Shown here piece after piece: positions 9,814 to 38,252 of a stretch of DNA of 64,000 bases. The stretch lies in the IMG/VR virus record IMGVR_UViG_3300045421_000501, positions 1-64,000 of that record; one strand, given 5' to 3'. How positions within the stretch are numbered: the first letter of the stretch is position 1; every line of letters starts with the position of its first letter. The notes under the pieces are model-generated. The model saw nothing but the letters and a program-made list of their open reading frames with translations. It was not told where the DNA came from and did no database searches. Both the position numbers and the translations under genes were made by a program. The stretch is from a virus.

Positions 9814-11214
9814 ATGTATAACGCAACTCAGTTGCAGAGAAAGTGGGCTCCTCTTCTAGAGGCAGAGGGTCTAGATAAAATCTCAGATCCACATAGAAGA
9901 GCAGTTACCGCTCAACTGTTAGAAAATCAGGAGAATGATTTACGTGAAGGTAGATCATTCCTATCAGAAACTGCACCAACTTTCAATACCGATCCTGCAG
10001 GAACAGGAAATCCAGGATTTTCTGGATCAGCAACGACTCCAGTTGCAGGTTTTGATCCGGTTCTAATTAGTTTAATTAGACGTGCAATGCCTAACTTGGT
10101 CGCTTATGACTTAGCAGGTGTTCAACCAATGAATGGTCCTACTGGACTCATTTTTGCAATGAGAACTAAGTATGACAATCAAAGAGGAACTGAAGCGTTC
10201 TTCAATGAGCCAAATTCTGCATTCTCAGCACAAAACTCTTCTGCTAATCTTACTCAAGGAGATTATACTGGTGGTGTTGATGGAGACAGCACTGTAGGTT
10301 TCGGTACAACTGCACAATCCGGAACAAATCCATCCATTCTAAATGGTGGTGCATCAAATGCATATAATGTAGGTCAAGGTTTCAGAACTCAAGATCTAGA
10401 ATCTCTTGGAGATGGTCCTGCAAATAATTTCCGTGAAATGTCTTTCTCAATCGAGAAAGTTAGCGTAACTGCAAAGTCAAGAGCACTCAAAGCTGAGTAT
10501 TCATTAGAACTTGCACAAGATCTCAAGGCTATTCATGGTCTTGATGCGGAAGCAGAATTGGCAAATATTCTTTCTATAGAAATTCTTGCCGAAATCAACC
10601 GCGAAATCATTCGTACCATCTATAAAGTGGCTGAGCCTGGTGCTCAAACCAATACAGCAACTGCTGGTATATTTGACTTGGATATTGATTCCAATGGTCG
10701 TTGGATGGTTGAGAAGTTCAAAGGTATGATGTTCCAACTGGAGCGTGATGCTAATGCAATCGCTCAGAGAACTCGTAGAGGAAAGGGCAATATGATTCTT
10801 TGCTCTGCCGACGTTGCTTCTGCACTTCAAGCTGCAGGTCAACTTTCATACTCTGATGCTCTAAGCAATAATCTACAGGTTGATGATACCGGAAATACTT
10901 TTGCTGGTGTTCTAAATGGTCGCTATAAAGTTTATATCGATCCATTTGCTGCAAACCTAAGTGCAGATCAATACTATGTAATGGGATATAAGGGTACTTC
11001 ACCTTATGATGCAGGTCTTTTCTACTGCCCCTATGTGCCTCTACAGATGGTACGTGCTGTTGGACAGGATACATTCCAACCAAAAATTGGATTCAAGACT
11101 CGCTATGGTATGGTTGCAAATCCATTTGCAGAAGGAACCGATGTTGGTGCAGGTCGTATCACCAATGATACAAACCGTTACTACAGAAGAGTAAAAGTTC
11201 AAAATCTAATGTGA
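9814..11214 (+). CDS. 23: Major capsid protein gp23
   Basis: Hexameric capsid shell protein, 466 aa. The N-terminal propeptide starts with QLQRKWAPLLEAEGL, very like T4 gp23. FLSE at residues 49-52 matches the gp21 cleavage pattern L-x-E and aligns with the known T4 FLTE site, so mature protein probably starts at Thr 53. The HK97-fold region follows with RRAMPNLVAYDLAGVQPMN. A strong AAGGAG ribosome-binding site lies 9 bp upstream and a good terminator follows. Just after the predicted cleavage site is a motif also found in the 80-aa protein at 36603. Confidence 0.97.
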   Translation: MYNATQLQRKWAPLLEAEGLDKISDPHRRAVTAQLLENQENDLREGRSFLSETAPTFNTDPAGTGNPGFSGSATTPVAGFDPVLISLIRRAMPNLVAYDLAGVQPMNGPTGLIFAMRTKYDNQRGTEAFFNEPNSAFSAQNSSANLTQGDYTGGVDGDSTVGFGTTAQSGTNPSILNGGASNAYNVGQGFRTQDLESLGDGPANNFREMSFSIEKVSVTAKSRALKAEYSLELAQDLKAIHGLDAEAELANILSIEILAEINREIIRTIYKVAEPGAQTNTATAGIFDLDIDSNGRWMVEKFKGMMFQLERDANAIAQRTRRGKGNMILCSADVASALQAAGQLSYSDALSNNLQVDDTGNTFAGVLNGRYKVYIDPFAANLSADQYYVMGYKGTSPYDAGLFYCPYVPLQMVRAVGQDTFQPKIGFKTRYGMVANPFAEGTDVGAGRITNDTNRYYRRVKVQNLM

Positions 11215-31168: not shown

Positions 31169-31455
31169 ATGAAATTATAAAATTATATGCGTCTTCAATA
31201 AAACGCAATCAAATTATGAAAAAAGAAATTGAAGATTTTATGATATTTTATATTCATTTTTGCAAACAGTATAAAGACAAGAAGAATAAATACTTACAAT
31301 ATACGAAGGTTGGACTTATATTTATCCAACAAAATCAAAAATTAATATACGACAAGATTAATGAAGAGTTTTTATCAGTTCATCAGCGAAGCAAGAATAA
31401 CTCAAGCCTCGACTCAGGCAAAGCGTCTAGGGTTGGTAGGAAATGGACACGGTGA
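31165..31455 (+). CDS. Small Lys-rich protein overlapping the next gene
   Basis: 96-aa ORF starting in an ATGA overlap with the previous gene. The first 65 residues are Lys/Ile/Tyr-rich; the last 30 lie in the 95-bp overlap with the ORF at 31361 and read as low-complexity Ser/Lys, so the true functional part may be the first two thirds. Less certain than its neighbours; function unknown. Confidence 0.45.
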   Translation: MNEIIKLYASSIKRNQIMKKEIEDFMIFYIHFCKQYKDKKNKYLQYTKVGLIFIQQNQKLIYDKINEEFLSVHQRSKNNSSLDSGKASRVGRKWTR

Positions 31456-32242
31456 CTGGTATACAAGACAAGGAGAATTAAAAGCAAAAACTATAAATGG
31501 GAAATTGCATTTATATACTGCAAAAGAATTGCAGAAAAATTCTTTAGGACAAGAAACAAATTCCTCAAATATAACAAGTTCAAATGCAAGTGGAGCGAAA
31601 GGAAAACCTTCTCTACAAAGAAGAACGACTCTGATTGAACCACCACAAAAATCGAAAAAAAAATCAACAACTAAGAAAAAATCCTCAAATGAATTAATAG
31701 TAAAAAATACGAATAAACCATTGACTGTAGTATTTGATTCTTTTGATGATGATAATATAAGTAATAATATTATCAAAACAGTAAAGGATTTGGGTGGAGA
31801 GTTTTATATTTTTCCAAGTAGAAACTCAAATATTAAAGAATTGAAATTAAAATTTGATAAAAAAATAAGTGATAGAATAGTTGATAATAAAAATGCAGAA
31901 AACATTTATGATGTTCTTCAGAGTATTAACGATGCTGGAGTTGATTCTGTAAATATTGTCGTTCGTCAAAGTCGGATGAAAACTATTACGAATCTTTCCC
32001 AAGAACAAAATGGAGTTTTATATGATTATCAAATGATAAATATCATTCCTGTAGATGAAAGAAGTGTAAGAGAACAATATATTTCGGGAGACATATTTAC
32101 ATTAGGATCACTTATAGAATCAAATGGAATGATTGGTAAAATTGTGAGAAGAGGATCAAATCATTTAATTTGCACAACGAATGATGGAAATATGTTTAAG
32201 TCCTTTATAAATAATGCAAGTGAAATAAAAATAAATTTATGA
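31361..32242 (+). CDS. Candidate internal head protein with T4-type capsid-targeting sequence
   Basis: 293 aa beginning MKSFYQFISEA. T4 internal proteins IPI and IPIII begin MKTYQEFIAEA, the capsid-targeting sequence that gp21 cleaves after Glu 10. Length, Phe/Ile pattern and the I-x-E cleavage site all match, so this is likely packed in the head and trimmed to start at Ala 11. The mature part has LGLVGNGHGDWYTRQGEL (a block recurring in cyanophage proteins), a Lys/Ser-rich linker, and a C-terminal domain from about 115 with strand-helix repeats. A late-like AATAAATA lies at 31285-31292. Its activity is unknown. Confidence 0.75.
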   Translation: MKSFYQFISEARITQASTQAKRLGLVGNGHGDWYTRQGELKAKTINGKLHLYTAKELQKNSLGQETNSSNITSSNASGAKGKPSLQRRTTLIEPPQKSKKKSTTKKKSSNELIVKNTNKPLTVVFDSFDDDNISNNIIKTVKDLGGEFYIFPSRNSNIKELKLKFDKKISDRIVDNKNAENIYDVLQSINDAGVDSVNIVVRQSRMKTITNLSQEQNGVLYDYQMINIIPVDERSVREQYISGDIFTLGSLIESNGMIGKIVRRGSNHLICTTNDGNMFKSFINNASEIKINL

Positions 32243-32965: not shown

Positions 32966-34381
32966 ATGAGTAATCCTTGGGTAGAATCGTTCGAAGAACT
33001 CCGTAGACCATTTTTGTTTGAGGGTGAGGAAAAACTCAAGCAAAGAAATAAAAATGAGATGCTGCGTAAGGCAGGCAATCTTGCTCGTGAAGTAGTTTCT
33101 ACTCCTAACACTGAGAAAAATGCTGTAAAAAGAGGCGCAGCAATGGATAGAATGAGCAAACTTGTACGTGCGATTGCTGGTGATGACGAAAGAAAGAGAT
33201 TTGAACGTACTGGACAATCACCAGCACATAATCCAGGATATCGAGGTGAAGAAGTTGAAATGAAAGGAGAAGATCCCTGTTGGAAAGGGTATCAGATGGT
33301 CGGAACAAAGAAAAAAGGAAATCGTGAAGTTCCTAACTGTGTTCCTAAAAAAACTAATGAAGAAGTTAAAATGAAAGGAGAAGATCCCTGTTGGAAAGGG
33401 TATCAGATGGTCGGAACAAAGAAAAAAGGAAATCGTGAAGTTCCTAACTGTGTTCCTAAAAAAACTAATGAAGCCGTAGATCAGGACAACGATGGCGATA
33501 ACGATTTTGCCGACATTATGATTCGAAGAATGGTTAGTTCTGGAAAAATGTCGAAGGCACAAGCAATTGAAAAAACTAAAAATAAATCTTATAATAAAAA
33601 ATCAGGAATTAAAAAAGAACAGTATTCAAATTGGAGAAATGAATTAGAAGAATTTGAAAATATTATAGAGGCATTAGTTTCTTCTGGAGAACAAACCGAA
33701 AAAATTGAGGATAGAAGAAAGAGTGGAAATAAAAATAAAGTAGATATTAATCCCACTTTAAAATTAGAAGAAGATCAGTATGAAGATAATGAATTAAATG
33801 AAAAAACATTAACTGCTGCCGAAACTAAAAAAAAAGAACATATTGTAATGTCAATGAAATCTAAATTGAAAGATTTTGAACAAAGATATCCTGGTCGTGG
33901 AAAGGAAGTAATGTATGCAACAGCTACTAAAATGGCAAAAGAAAATTCTTTAGACTATTGGTTAGATGAGGCAAGAAATGAAACCTCGGCAGAACGTTAT
34001 GCAAGACTTCGTGCATCTGAAATGTCTTCTGTTGATAAAAATAGACAAAAAAAACAGAGAGAAAGGCAAACAAAATTAGAATCTGAAGCAGATAAAATTC
34101 TTGCTGGATTTAGTAAAAAAGGAACCGGAATTTCAAAAACAAAATCTCCAGAAAAACCAGAGACTCCAGAAGCAAATCGTAGATTAAAACCTGGAGAAAA
34201 AAAAGATACTCTTGCAACAAGAGCTTCTCAGGCAATGAAAGAAGAGGAAGAAAAAAATAATAAAAAACCAAAATACATGTATTCTAAAAATCCAAAATAT
34301 GCTCGTCCACAAAAAGATGATCCTTATGGTAGAGGTGGTGGGTCAAAAGTAAGAACTCACGATAAAGGATGGGACGAATAA
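32966..34381 (+). CDS. Low-complexity cyanophage protein with tandem Cys-containing repeats
   Basis: 471-aa, Lys/Glu-rich, largely disordered protein. It starts MSNPWVESFEELRRPFLFEG; LFE at 17-19 could be a gp21 cleavage site. Two nearly identical 37-residue repeats (about residues 96-169) each contain EDPCWKGYQMVGTKKKG and VPNCVPKKT, with paired Cys, a module that recurs in cyanophage virion proteins from memory. The rest has charged helices and a basic C-terminus (GRGGGSKVRTHDKG). The composition suggests a nucleic-acid- or head-associated protein; this is inference. Confidence 0.7.
   Translation: MSNPWVESFEELRRPFLFEGEEKLKQRNKNEMLRKAGNLAREVVSTPNTEKNAVKRGAAMDRMSKLVRAIAGDDERKRFERTGQSPAHNPGYRGEEVEMKGEDPCWKGYQMVGTKKKGNREVPNCVPKKTNEEVKMKGEDPCWKGYQMVGTKKKGNREVPNCVPKKTNEAVDQDNDGDNDFADIMIRRMVSSGKMSKAQAIEKTKNKSYNKKSGIKKEQYSNWRNELEEFENIIEALVSSGEQTEKIEDRRKSGNKNKVDINPTLKLEEDQYEDNELNEKTLTAAETKKKEHIVMSMKSKLKDFEQRYPGRGKEVMYATATKMAKENSLDYWLDEARNETSAERYARLRASEMSSVDKNRQKKQRERQTKLESEADKILAGFSKKGTGISKTKSPEKPETPEANRRLKPGEKKDTLATRASQAMKEEEEKNNKKPKYMYSKNPKYARPQKDDPYGRGGGSKVRTHDKGWDE
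33251..33472 (+). repeat. Tandem duplication, 2 x 111 bp
   Basis: Units 33251-33361 and 33362-33472 are the same length (37 codons) and differ at a single base (33257 G, 33368 A, changing Glu to Lys). Such identity at synonymous sites means a very recent duplication. Confidence 0.95.
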
Positions 34382-35327: not shown

Positions 35328-35353
35328 GAGTCCTGAGAAAGGGCTCTTTTTTT
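35328..35353 (+). terminator. Rho-independent terminator
   Basis: 7-bp stem GAGTCCT/AGGGCTC (one G-T pair) with loop GAGAA and seven T. Confidence 0.82.
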
Positions 35354-35355
35354 AT

Positions 35356-35363
35356 TATAAATA
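35356..35363 (+). promoter_or_regulatory. Late promoter TATAAATA for the Ig-domain protein
   Basis: Exact TATAAATA immediately after the terminator T tract and 27 bp before the ATG at 35391, mirroring the terminator then late-promoter arrangement after gp23. Confidence 0.78.
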
Positions 35364-35390: not shown

Positions 35391-36224
35391 ATGGCACTCT
35401 GGGGAAAATCTGATAGTCTTTACTCAACCGGAACAGTATCCGTAAATTATGCAACAAAAGTGATTACCGGTTCTGGTACTTCATTTACCGCTGCTGGTAT
35501 TTCCACTGGAGATGTTATTAGTATTGGTGTTGGAAAAACTTATGGTGAAGCAGTAATCAGAACGGTTGTTTCTAATACTCAAATTACAATTGCATCTACT
35601 CAATTTTTGAGTGGAAGTGCAATTTCTGGAATTGGATATACAATTTCAGAAAAACCATCATATACATTACATGATTCTGATCTTTCGGTATTGACTGCAC
35701 CAGCAACAACTCGAATTGTTGGTGTTGATACTACCGAAGTTCATTCTGCAGATCATTATGCTCATGCGGGATGGGTTGGAATTTTAACTTATATTGATCA
35801 GCATGGAAGATTGAGAAGGAAAAGTGAAGTTTTAGTTGCATTTTCTGGAATTACTACAGGAACTCCTTCTTATACTTCTTCTGGAGATGCTGATGGTGAT
35901 GATCAAATTGCACCAGATCGTAGAATTACAATTAATACACAACCATCCAGTGTAGGTGTTGGAACTACAGCAGTAGCAACATTTGTTGTGCTTGCATCAG
36001 TACTTCCATCTGCAGCACTAACATATCAATGGCAATACTCATCTAATGCTGGTATTGCTTATACAGCACTTTCAAATGGTGGAGCATATGCAGGAACGGG
36101 AACTACTACACTAACAGTAACTAATAGTAGTAATGCACTCAATGGATACTATTATCGCGCAGTTGTAACTTCTCCAGATGCAAATCCACAAACATCCAAT
36201 GCAGCTTTAATGACAGTTTCTTAA
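35391..36224 (+). CDS. Virion protein with C-terminal Ig-like domain
   Basis: 277 aa. The N-terminal 90 residues (MALWGKSDSLYSTGTVSV, then VITGSGTSFTAAGISTGDVI) form a Ser/Thr/Gly-rich beta module. Residues about 185-277 form an Ig-like domain: RRITINTQPSSVGVGTTA, ALTYQWQYSS, TTTLTVTNSSNALNGYYYRA. Ig-like domains decorate phage capsids and tails (T4 Hoc is an example) and may bind host surface sugars. Its own late promoter supports a structural role. Confidence 0.78.
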   Translation: MALWGKSDSLYSTGTVSVNYATKVITGSGTSFTAAGISTGDVISIGVGKTYGEAVIRTVVSNTQITIASTQFLSGSAISGIGYTISEKPSYTLHDSDLSVLTAPATTRIVGVDTTEVHSADHYAHAGWVGILTYIDQHGRLRRKSEVLVAFSGITTGTPSYTSSGDADGDDQIAPDRRITINTQPSSVGVGTTAVATFVVLASVLPSAALTYQWQYSSNAGIAYTALSNGGAYAGTGTTTLTVTNSSNALNGYYYRAVVTSPDANPQTSNAALMTVS

Positions 36225-36231
36225 TATAATA

Positions 36232-36603
36232 ATGAAGTTTGAACATCTGAATGAAGATAATTATCTTCTCTTTGCCATAAAATATTATGAAAATCCCTAT
36301 GGATCAACCATGGAGGATTTTGAAGAAGATTTGAGAAGATTTAAGTATATAAAAAGATTATTGAAAAAATATGCAACACAAAATGAATTGAAACATCATT
36401 TGATTTTGAATCATATTATTATTTGTTTTAATATTTTTGGAGATGCAACAATACCTCTTTTATTTTTTAAAATTGAAAAAGAATATTGGTCGATCTTAAA
36501 AACCTTTTTATTATTTCTAAATCGAATACCAGAATATCCAAAAAGTGAATTGAATGATATTCCAATAGATGAAAAATGCAATAATATTTTAAGTTCAATC
36601 TAA
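36232..36603 (+). CDS. Conserved T4-like cyanophage protein, helical
   Basis: 123 aa: MKFEHLNEDNYLLFAIKYYE, DFEEDLRRFKYIKRLLKKYA, then hydrophobic helices with HLILNHIIICFNIFGDAT. Conserved in my memory among T4-like phages but without assigned function. The last base of its stop overlaps the following ATG. All-alpha, no TM prediction with confidence. Confidence 0.65.
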   Translation: MKFEHLNEDNYLLFAIKYYENPYGSTMEDFEEDLRRFKYIKRLLKKYATQNELKHHLILNHIIICFNIFGDATIPLLFFKIEKEYWSILKTFLLFLNRIPEYPKSELNDIPIDEKCNNILSSI

Positions 36604-36845
36604 TGAATAATTCAAAGTTGGATCGTATAATAAATATTATTAGAGAAGATATGATGGTAACTGACCCAGCTAAGACAAATACGCCAGGATTTAGTGCTAG
36701 TGCAAATCAACCAGTTTCTGGATTTGATCCGATTATGGACCTTAGGCGTAAATATGGTAAAAAATTGAATCTTTTTTATCGTACACGTATCAAGGATATA
36801 AAAAATGCTGAACGGAGATCTAAAGGCACGAACCGCAGTGCTTGA
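36603..36845 (+). CDS. Small basic protein sharing the major-capsid N-terminal motif
   Basis: 80 aa. Residues about 20-45 read TDPAKTNTPGFSASANQPVS then GFDPIM, against TDPAGTGNPGFSGSATTPVA then GFDPVL just after the predicted cleavage site of gp23. The preceding IRE at about 13-15 fits the gp21 L/I-x-E cleavage rule. The C-terminal half is basic (RRKYGKKLNLFYRTRIK). Likely a small capsid-associated protein (inference). It overlaps the next gene by 41 bp. Confidence 0.6.
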   Translation: MNNSKLDRIINIIREDMMVTDPAKTNTPGFSASANQPVSGFDPIMDLRRKYGKKLNLFYRTRIKDIKNAERRSKGTNRSA

Positions 36846-37242
36846 ACAAAAAAGTTCAAATCAAGAAAAATTAATTGAAAAAGTTGACGCTGCAATTCAA
36901 GTAATGAAAGAAGTGGTGGAAAATGTTTCAAAAATGTTAGCTGTTCATAATGAAAGAATTGAACAATCTAGCAAAGCTGATAATATTATTATCAGTATGA
37001 TTAAGGAAATGAAAACAGAACTTGAAGCAGAAGATGTAGATCTTGGTGATAGAATAGACGAAATTAGTATAAAACTAGAAGATATGAAAAAAGTAAAGTG
37101 GATAACAGTGGGAGTAGGATTATTTACTGCTGTTACTGTAGGAGCTATTTCGACACTTGCTTCTGGATTATTGACACCTGGAGAATTAGGTGTTAGAATG
37201 GAGCATCGTTATGTTCCGAATCCAGAAAATATTAAAAAATGA
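36805..37242 (+). CDS. Coiled-coil protein with C-terminal transmembrane helix
   Basis: 145 aa. Residues 1-97 are a continuous charged coiled coil (LNGDLKARTAVLEQKSSNQE and following), then WITVGVGLFTAVTVGAISTL forms one TM helix, followed by a short tail. This layout resembles phage proteins of the DUF7201 kind and some holin or membrane-anchor proteins; no function is assigned. It overlaps gp61 by 4 bp. Confidence 0.6.
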   Translation: MLNGDLKARTAVLEQKSSNQEKLIEKVDAAIQVMKEVVENVSKMLAVHNERIEQSSKADNIIISMIKEMKTELEAEDVDLGDRIDEISIKLEDMKKVKWITVGVGLFTAVTVGAISTLASGLLTPGELGVRMEHRYVPNPENIKK

Positions 37243-38252
37243 TTTATGTTGATGTAAAATATATTGGACTAATTTCTTGCAGACTACAAAAATTTAGTAA
37301 AAAAAAGGAAAATCTTTATAATTTTAGATGCCCTTATTGTGGCGATTCTCAAAAAAATAAAAATCGTACAAGAGCATATTTTTATCAACGCAAATCTGAT
37401 TTTAATTTTAAGTGCCATAATTGTGGAATTTCAAAATCATTCACATATTTTTTGAAAGATTTGGATAGTCAAATCTATGATGAATATATTTTGGAAAGAT
37501 ATCGAGAAGGATTATCCGGAAAGGGAACAGTGTGTCCTGAACCCGAGTTCAAATTTAAAAAACCAGTTTTTGGTGCAAGTAAACCTGTAAATAAATTAAA
37601 TATTCCAACGATTGCAGATTTGGATAAACTTCATCCTGCAAGAGTATATTTGGAGAATAGAAAAATACCGGAAAAATTCTATTCCAAATTATACTATGCA
37701 GAAAAATTTAAGGAATGGACAAACACTCAAAAACACACATTCAATTCAATTGAGAAAGATGAGTCTCGAATTATTATTCCTCTTATAAATCATGGCGAAA
37801 TATTTGGATATCAGGGAAGAAGTTTGAATAAAGATTCAAATGTTAAGTATATTACAATTATTCTAAATGATAAACATCCTAAAATATTTGGATTAGATAA
37901 TCTAAATTATGAAAAACCAGTTTACATCGTAGAAGGTCCTTTTGATTCGATGTTTTTGAACAATTCAATAGCAATGGTTGGAGCGGATTTTGATAAAATG
38001 TTTTTTATTAGTAATTTTAATGTTGACTTTGTGATGGTTTATGATAATGAAAAACGTAATAAAGAAATTGTGAATCGAATTGAAACTGCAATTGATTATA
38101 AATTTCCCGTAGTAATTTGGCCAAATGATCTAAAGGAAAAAGATATTAATGATATGATACTAGCAGGTAAATGTCCTGAAAAAATAATTAGTGAAAATAC
38201 TTTTAGTGGTTTAGAAGCAAAAACAAAACTTATTGGATGGAAAAGAGTATGA
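37239..38252 (+). CDS. 61: DNA primase gp61
   Basis: Makes RNA primers with helicase gp41. Zinc-binding CPYC (31-34) and CHNC (59-62), followed by a TOPRIM core: IPLINHGEIFGYQGRS, VYIVEGPFDSMFLNN and the acidic MVYDNEKRN. 337 aa, as in T4 (342 aa). It overlaps nrdA in ATGA. Confidence 0.94.
   Translation: MIYVDVKYIGLISCRLQKFSKKKENLYNFRCPYCGDSQKNKNRTRAYFYQRKSDFNFKCHNCGISKSFTYFLKDLDSQIYDEYILERYREGLSGKGTVCPEPEFKFKKPVFGASKPVNKLNIPTIADLDKLHPARVYLENRKIPEKFYSKLYYAEKFKEWTNTQKHTFNSIEKDESRIIIPLINHGEIFGYQGRSLNKDSNVKYITIILNDKHPKIFGLDNLNYEKPVYIVEGPFDSMFLNNSIAMVGADFDKMFFISNFNVDFVMVYDNEKRNKEIVNRIETAIDYKFPVVIWPNDLKEKDINDMILAGKCPEKIISENTFSGLEAKTKLIGWKRV

Follow-up and report, generated by a model that had tools for sequence, protein, structure and literature searches.

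Locus and Gene Content

The gene at the centre of this study lies at positions 36603–36845 of the window (the whole 64,000-nucleotide stretch of viral DNA that was analysed) and specifies an 80-aa protein. The late block around it is conserved and has the following features.

35356..35363, + strand: match to a T4-type late promoter, TATAAATA, 35 bases 5' of the head protein gene
35391..36224, + strand: head protein encoded by the first gene of the block (PHROG match, 3086/613)
36232..36603, + strand: DUF7207 protein (Syn9 gp189), the fixed upstream neighbour (Pfam, 1.2e-51)
36603..36845, + strand: putative small head protein, 80 aa with a net charge of about +9, a short form in the Syn9 gp190 family (PHROG matches)
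36603..36647, + strand: N-terminal helical propeptide of the small protein, MNNSKLDRIINIIRE, proposed capsid-targeting segment (AF2 helix 3–19)
36639..36647, + strand: gp21-like site I-R-E of the small protein (L/I-x-E pattern, short relatives)
36660..36737, + strand: gp23 N-fist-like segment of the small protein, TDPAKTNTPGFSASANQPVSGFDPIM (alignment and profile matches)
36738..36842, + strand: basic helical C-terminal tail of the small protein, net +10 (composition, AF2 model)
36805..37242, + strand: DUF7201 coiled-coil protein (Syn9 gp191), the usual downstream neighbour (Pfam, 1.9e-25)
37239..38252, + strand: gp61 DNA primase (PHROG 47, 3.2e-85)

The promoter match has the form of the late promoters of S-PM2 and T4 (PMC2984593), and a terminator-like hairpin (35328–35346) lies directly 5' of it. 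T4-like cyanophages share the gene order head protein, DUF7207, gp190-family gene, usually DUF7201, then gp61 and nrdA; the window ORF likewise lies between DUF7207 and gp61, and its ATG overlaps the DUF7207 stop codon. The positional counterpart of the window's head protein, S-SZBM1_136, is a virion protein. Whether the ORF is translated, a point on which the sequence-only reading of this DNA depended, was checked by selection: dN/dS is 0.10–0.24 against four relatives, which rules out a spurious ORF and identifies a real gene under purifying selection. Its HMM matches are to PHROG 3286 (7.7e-9; annotated 'unknown') and PHROG 696 (6.1e-5; annotated 'major head protein'), and with the same locus and the same motif it is a member of the Syn9 gp190 family (PHROG 3286/696; T4-GC 131/426), the function of which was previously undescribed. 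Pfam gave no match to the 80-aa protein or to the longer members of the family, the HK97-fold body (PF07068) being absent, and neither PHROG nor Pfam gave a match relating the 80-aa protein to Hoc or Soc. The AF2 model consists of helices only, with the motif at low confidence.

A Segment Shared with the Major Capsid Protein

The major capsid protein is encoded elsewhere in the window, and its relevant features are:

9814..11214, + strand: gp23 major capsid protein (PF07068, 3.8e-147; PDB 6uzc, 1e-84)
9961..9969, + strand: predicted gp21 site of gp23, L-S-E (L50/E52 invariant in the alignment)
9988..10065, + strand: gp23 N-fist segment, TDPAGTGNPGFSGSATTPVAGFDPVL (alignment with the small protein)

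Residues 20–45 of the small protein (TDPAKTNTPGFSASANQPVSGFDPIM) align without gaps to residues 59–84 of gp23 (TDPAGTGNPGFSGSATTPVAGFDPVL), with 17 of 26 identical. This bears out the likeness to the gp23 cleavage-site region that was originally claimed, as well as the observation that both copies are preceded by a gp21-like site (LSE in gp23, IRE in the small protein). A profile of gp23 N-termini from 29 other genomes, searched against the 1724 six-frame ORFs of the window, found gp23 (2.8e-7) and ORF 36603–36845 (4.7e-6), the next match being at 5.8. Conversely, a profile of six short family members was searched in six frames against 24 complete cyanophage genomes; in 23 of these it hit the gp190-family locus and the gp23 N-terminus and no other place. 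The motif is therefore not random, as a search across cyanophages had been expected to decide, and the two profile searches exclude chance similarity. The exception was S-SZBM1, in which the GF..AGFDP motif core has been lost: its locus gene SSZBM1_134 (L236:6940-7311) starts with INEEAPTNSVGTG (INE-EAPTN) and keeps the C-terminal domain of long forms. The visible entries of the S-SZBM1 virion list do not include the product of this gene, a single case in which absence is weak evidence.

The shared segment, a copy of roughly the first 25 residues of mature gp23, maps to the N-fist and the beginning of the N-arm. In T4, gp21 takes 65 residues off gp23, leaving a new N-terminus that is disordered within the prohead and on expansion shifts to the outer surface to become the N-fist (residues 66–91), which touches four subunits in two capsomers; the N-fists that face the portal are disordered (PMC9958956; PMC7136217). 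The segment of the small protein has the same post-cut position and a related sequence but, unlike the N-fist of T4 gp23*, is carried on a separate small protein without an HK97 fold. No earlier report of gp23 N-fist mimicry was found in the openly accessible literature. The AF2 model of gp23 had a pLDDT of 34 and was left out of all inferences.

Family Forms and a Second Allele

The gp190 family includes short forms of 60–88 aa, such as the window protein, and long forms of about 125–297 aa; the N-terminal segment is common to both, and the long forms carry an extra C-terminal domain. A [hydrophobic]-[RK]-E site occurs in all 64 short members. Its first position is strictly L or I in 47, as the gp21 specificity of L/I-X-E (PMC9026906) would have it and as in the window protein (I-R-E, 36639–36647), and V or F in the other 17. 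Tails of the short relatives are basic, with a median charge of +9 and 39% K/R. In RefSeq, gp190 relatives (L098:2516-3040 and others) are labelled 'major head protein' though they lack the gp23 body. Since Pfam finds no gp23 fold in the long forms, the name appears to be due to the short segment alone, and the label has probably spread through it.

At the same locus there is a second allele, found in S-SM2, Bellamy and at least 128 contigs (L359:2501-2689; L363-L442), in which PTNNVGGGxIAGTxEAGDDPPV replaces the GF..AGFDP core while the helix and tail are kept. The S-SM2 form has no second place within the S-SM2 genome, and the gp23 of S-SM2 is ordinary, though its small protein has the second allele. 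The N-fist copy is thus not always required for the gene to function, and gp23 mimicry is common in the family but not obligatory. In three second-allele relatives the usual helix is replaced by a capsid-targeting sequence (CTS) of the T4 internal-protein (IP) type (MKTFLQFQEQA, MKSFYDFYEEA).

Co-variation with gp23

When every family segment was compared with every gp23 segment across 31 genomes, own-genome pairs scored 0.551 against 0.446 (permutation p 1e-5). Partial Mantel tests with gp23 body and gp189 distances controlled, which account for phylogeny imperfectly, gave r 0.34 (p 0.003) for 26 genomes and r 0.41 (p 0.002) for 21 dereplicated genomes. Variant sharing within genomes exceeds phylogenetic expectation. 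Inside the long-form clade alone co-variation was not significant (r 0.10, p 0.27), and a special match to the genome's own gp23 was absent in several genomes (AG-345-O18, S-CAM7, S-SM1 and S-RIM2).

Unusual variants common to both genes of a genome include TTGYTGGD (Syn9), GFTGAAAP (S-CREM2) and TDP (the window), and clear single cases of matching are S-T4 (GGGAMYRGSGREDSGSPTAGYDP vs GGGAYYRGSGQTDSGAPTGGFDP), Syn9, S-CREM2 and ACG-2014d. The variant YRGSG..DSG.PT is found in both genes of S-T4 and two other contigs, so that all three contigs of this type holding both genes show it in both, fully or nearly; because the three are related, this may represent one event. Among 2.9 million viral contigs the degenerate S-T4 pattern matched 30 stretches, 26 in gp23 and four in the gp190 family. 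The gene is also present in one of 16 contigs with a TDP-type gp23, as the second allele, and this case lends no support to co-variation. At identical residues the same codon was used in 38.8% of own-genome and 36.9% of cross-genome comparisons; codon identity no higher within than between genomes speaks against gene conversion, and a recent conversion between gp23 and the gp190-family gene is rejected.

Relatives in Virions

Evidence for virion presence comes from two relatives of the window protein. S-SCSM1_97, which has the motif, is annotated 'virion protein' in GenBank, and the virion proteome of S-SCSM1 has been reported (PMC9602691). S-CREM2 gp160, which contains GFTGAAAPEGPVAGYDP, was detected in virions with seven unique peptides and 13.1% coverage (PMC10665884, Table 3). 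The C-terminal part of gp160 matches PHROG 727, which indicates that the segment precedes different payloads.

Proposed Role and Alternatives

The reading we prefer, at a probability of roughly 0.55, is that the 80-aa protein is a minor component of the head, synthesised late in infection. The helix at its N-terminus would bring it into the prohead core, where gp21 would cleave the chain after I-R-E. The N-terminus exposed by this cut, being a gp23* N-fist copied in trans, would dock on the face that adjacent gp23* subunits present to the N-fist, anchoring the protein to the shell, and the basic tail would probably lie against DNA. The docking sites likely to be free are at the portal vertex, where the N-fists of T4 are disordered, and at pentamers. 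The data show a real, conserved gene, the segment in common with gp23, the co-variation and the presence of relatives in virions; from these we infer the targeting, the cut by gp21, the place of docking and the contact with DNA. An N-fist copy at the new N-terminus should dock where the gp23 N-fist docks, and a copy of the gp23 N-terminus that changes in step with gp23 suggests docking by imitation of the locking arm; the swap to a T4 IP-type CTS in second-allele relatives speaks for a function of the N-terminus in targeting. The earlier proposals that the protein binds the same capsid position and is processed in the prohead both fit the evidence, and we infer docking and cleavage themselves from the gp21-like site, the relatives in virions, the co-variation with gp23 and the match to the T4 N-fist. 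A decoration or cement role is possible.

The protein resembles T4 IPI–IPIII in being small, basic and late, with a gp21-like site at the end of its N-terminal propeptide, but its CTS sequence differs, T4-type sequences such as MKTFLQF and MKSFYDF being absent from the window protein, and imitation of gp23 has not been reported for the IPs. Encapsulin cargo-loading peptides, likewise short, attach cargo to shells built from HK97-fold subunits. The proposed docking is similar in kind, but these peptides, unlike the segment of the small protein, are not known to copy an arm of the shell protein. More tentatively, and with somewhat less than even odds, the trans N-fist could be a modular docking tag that brings different payloads to the shell (the basic tail, the PHROG 696 domain or, in S-CREM2, the PHROG 727 domain), co-evolving with the arm that the shell protein itself carries.

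The segment could instead be recognised during assembly by the scaffold gp22 or the protease gp21, and not by the mature shell, as a common passport for core entry and cutting. It does follow a gp21-like site in gp23 and most family members, and in some relatives, as in gp23, [QE]PTN comes after L-x-E. Against this, the segment is located after the cut and gp21 requires only L/I-X-E, it is found in no other ORF of the window or the 24 genomes, and many long forms begin at the motif without a propeptide, all of which make the passport unlikely. Less probable again is that the 5' end of gene 23 was partly copied long ago and the copy retained for an unrelated reason, the likeness reflecting descent only. 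In favour of it, the likeness in long forms reaches the PT[NM] start (MINEDAPTMSAGTGGFSG vs gp23 LTEAPTMAAGTGGFSG); a genome-specific match that goes beyond phylogeny and comes with no sharing of codons, together with the selection on the ORF, speaks against it. The protein could also be an assembly competitor, as was suggested early on, or a size regulator, in either case filling gp23 N-terminal sites in the prohead. Mimicry of the site would permit this, and T4 core proteins influence head shape (PMC9026906); two relatives stay in purified virions, which leaves it the most improbable of these explanations.

Docking through the N-fist copy would be a role open to experiment for a gene family that is widespread and carries either the annotation 'unknown' or the misleading one 'major head protein', and points to protein attachment on an HK97-type shell by imitation of the shell's own locking arm. 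It bears on vertex completion in cyanophages, which are without gp24, and would provide a short tag of natural origin with which proteins could be loaded into cyanophage heads.

Two other proteins of the window may be mentioned. A 293-aa protein (31361–32242) opens with MKSFYQFISEA, a capsid-targeting sequence of the T4 internal-protein type, and has a possible gp21 site. A 471-aa protein (32966–34381) contains a direct repeat (MKGEDPCWKGYQMVGTKKKGNREVPNCVPKKTNE, twice) and is related to PHROG 9737/727, so that it has PHROG 727 in common with the payload of S-CREM2 gp160.
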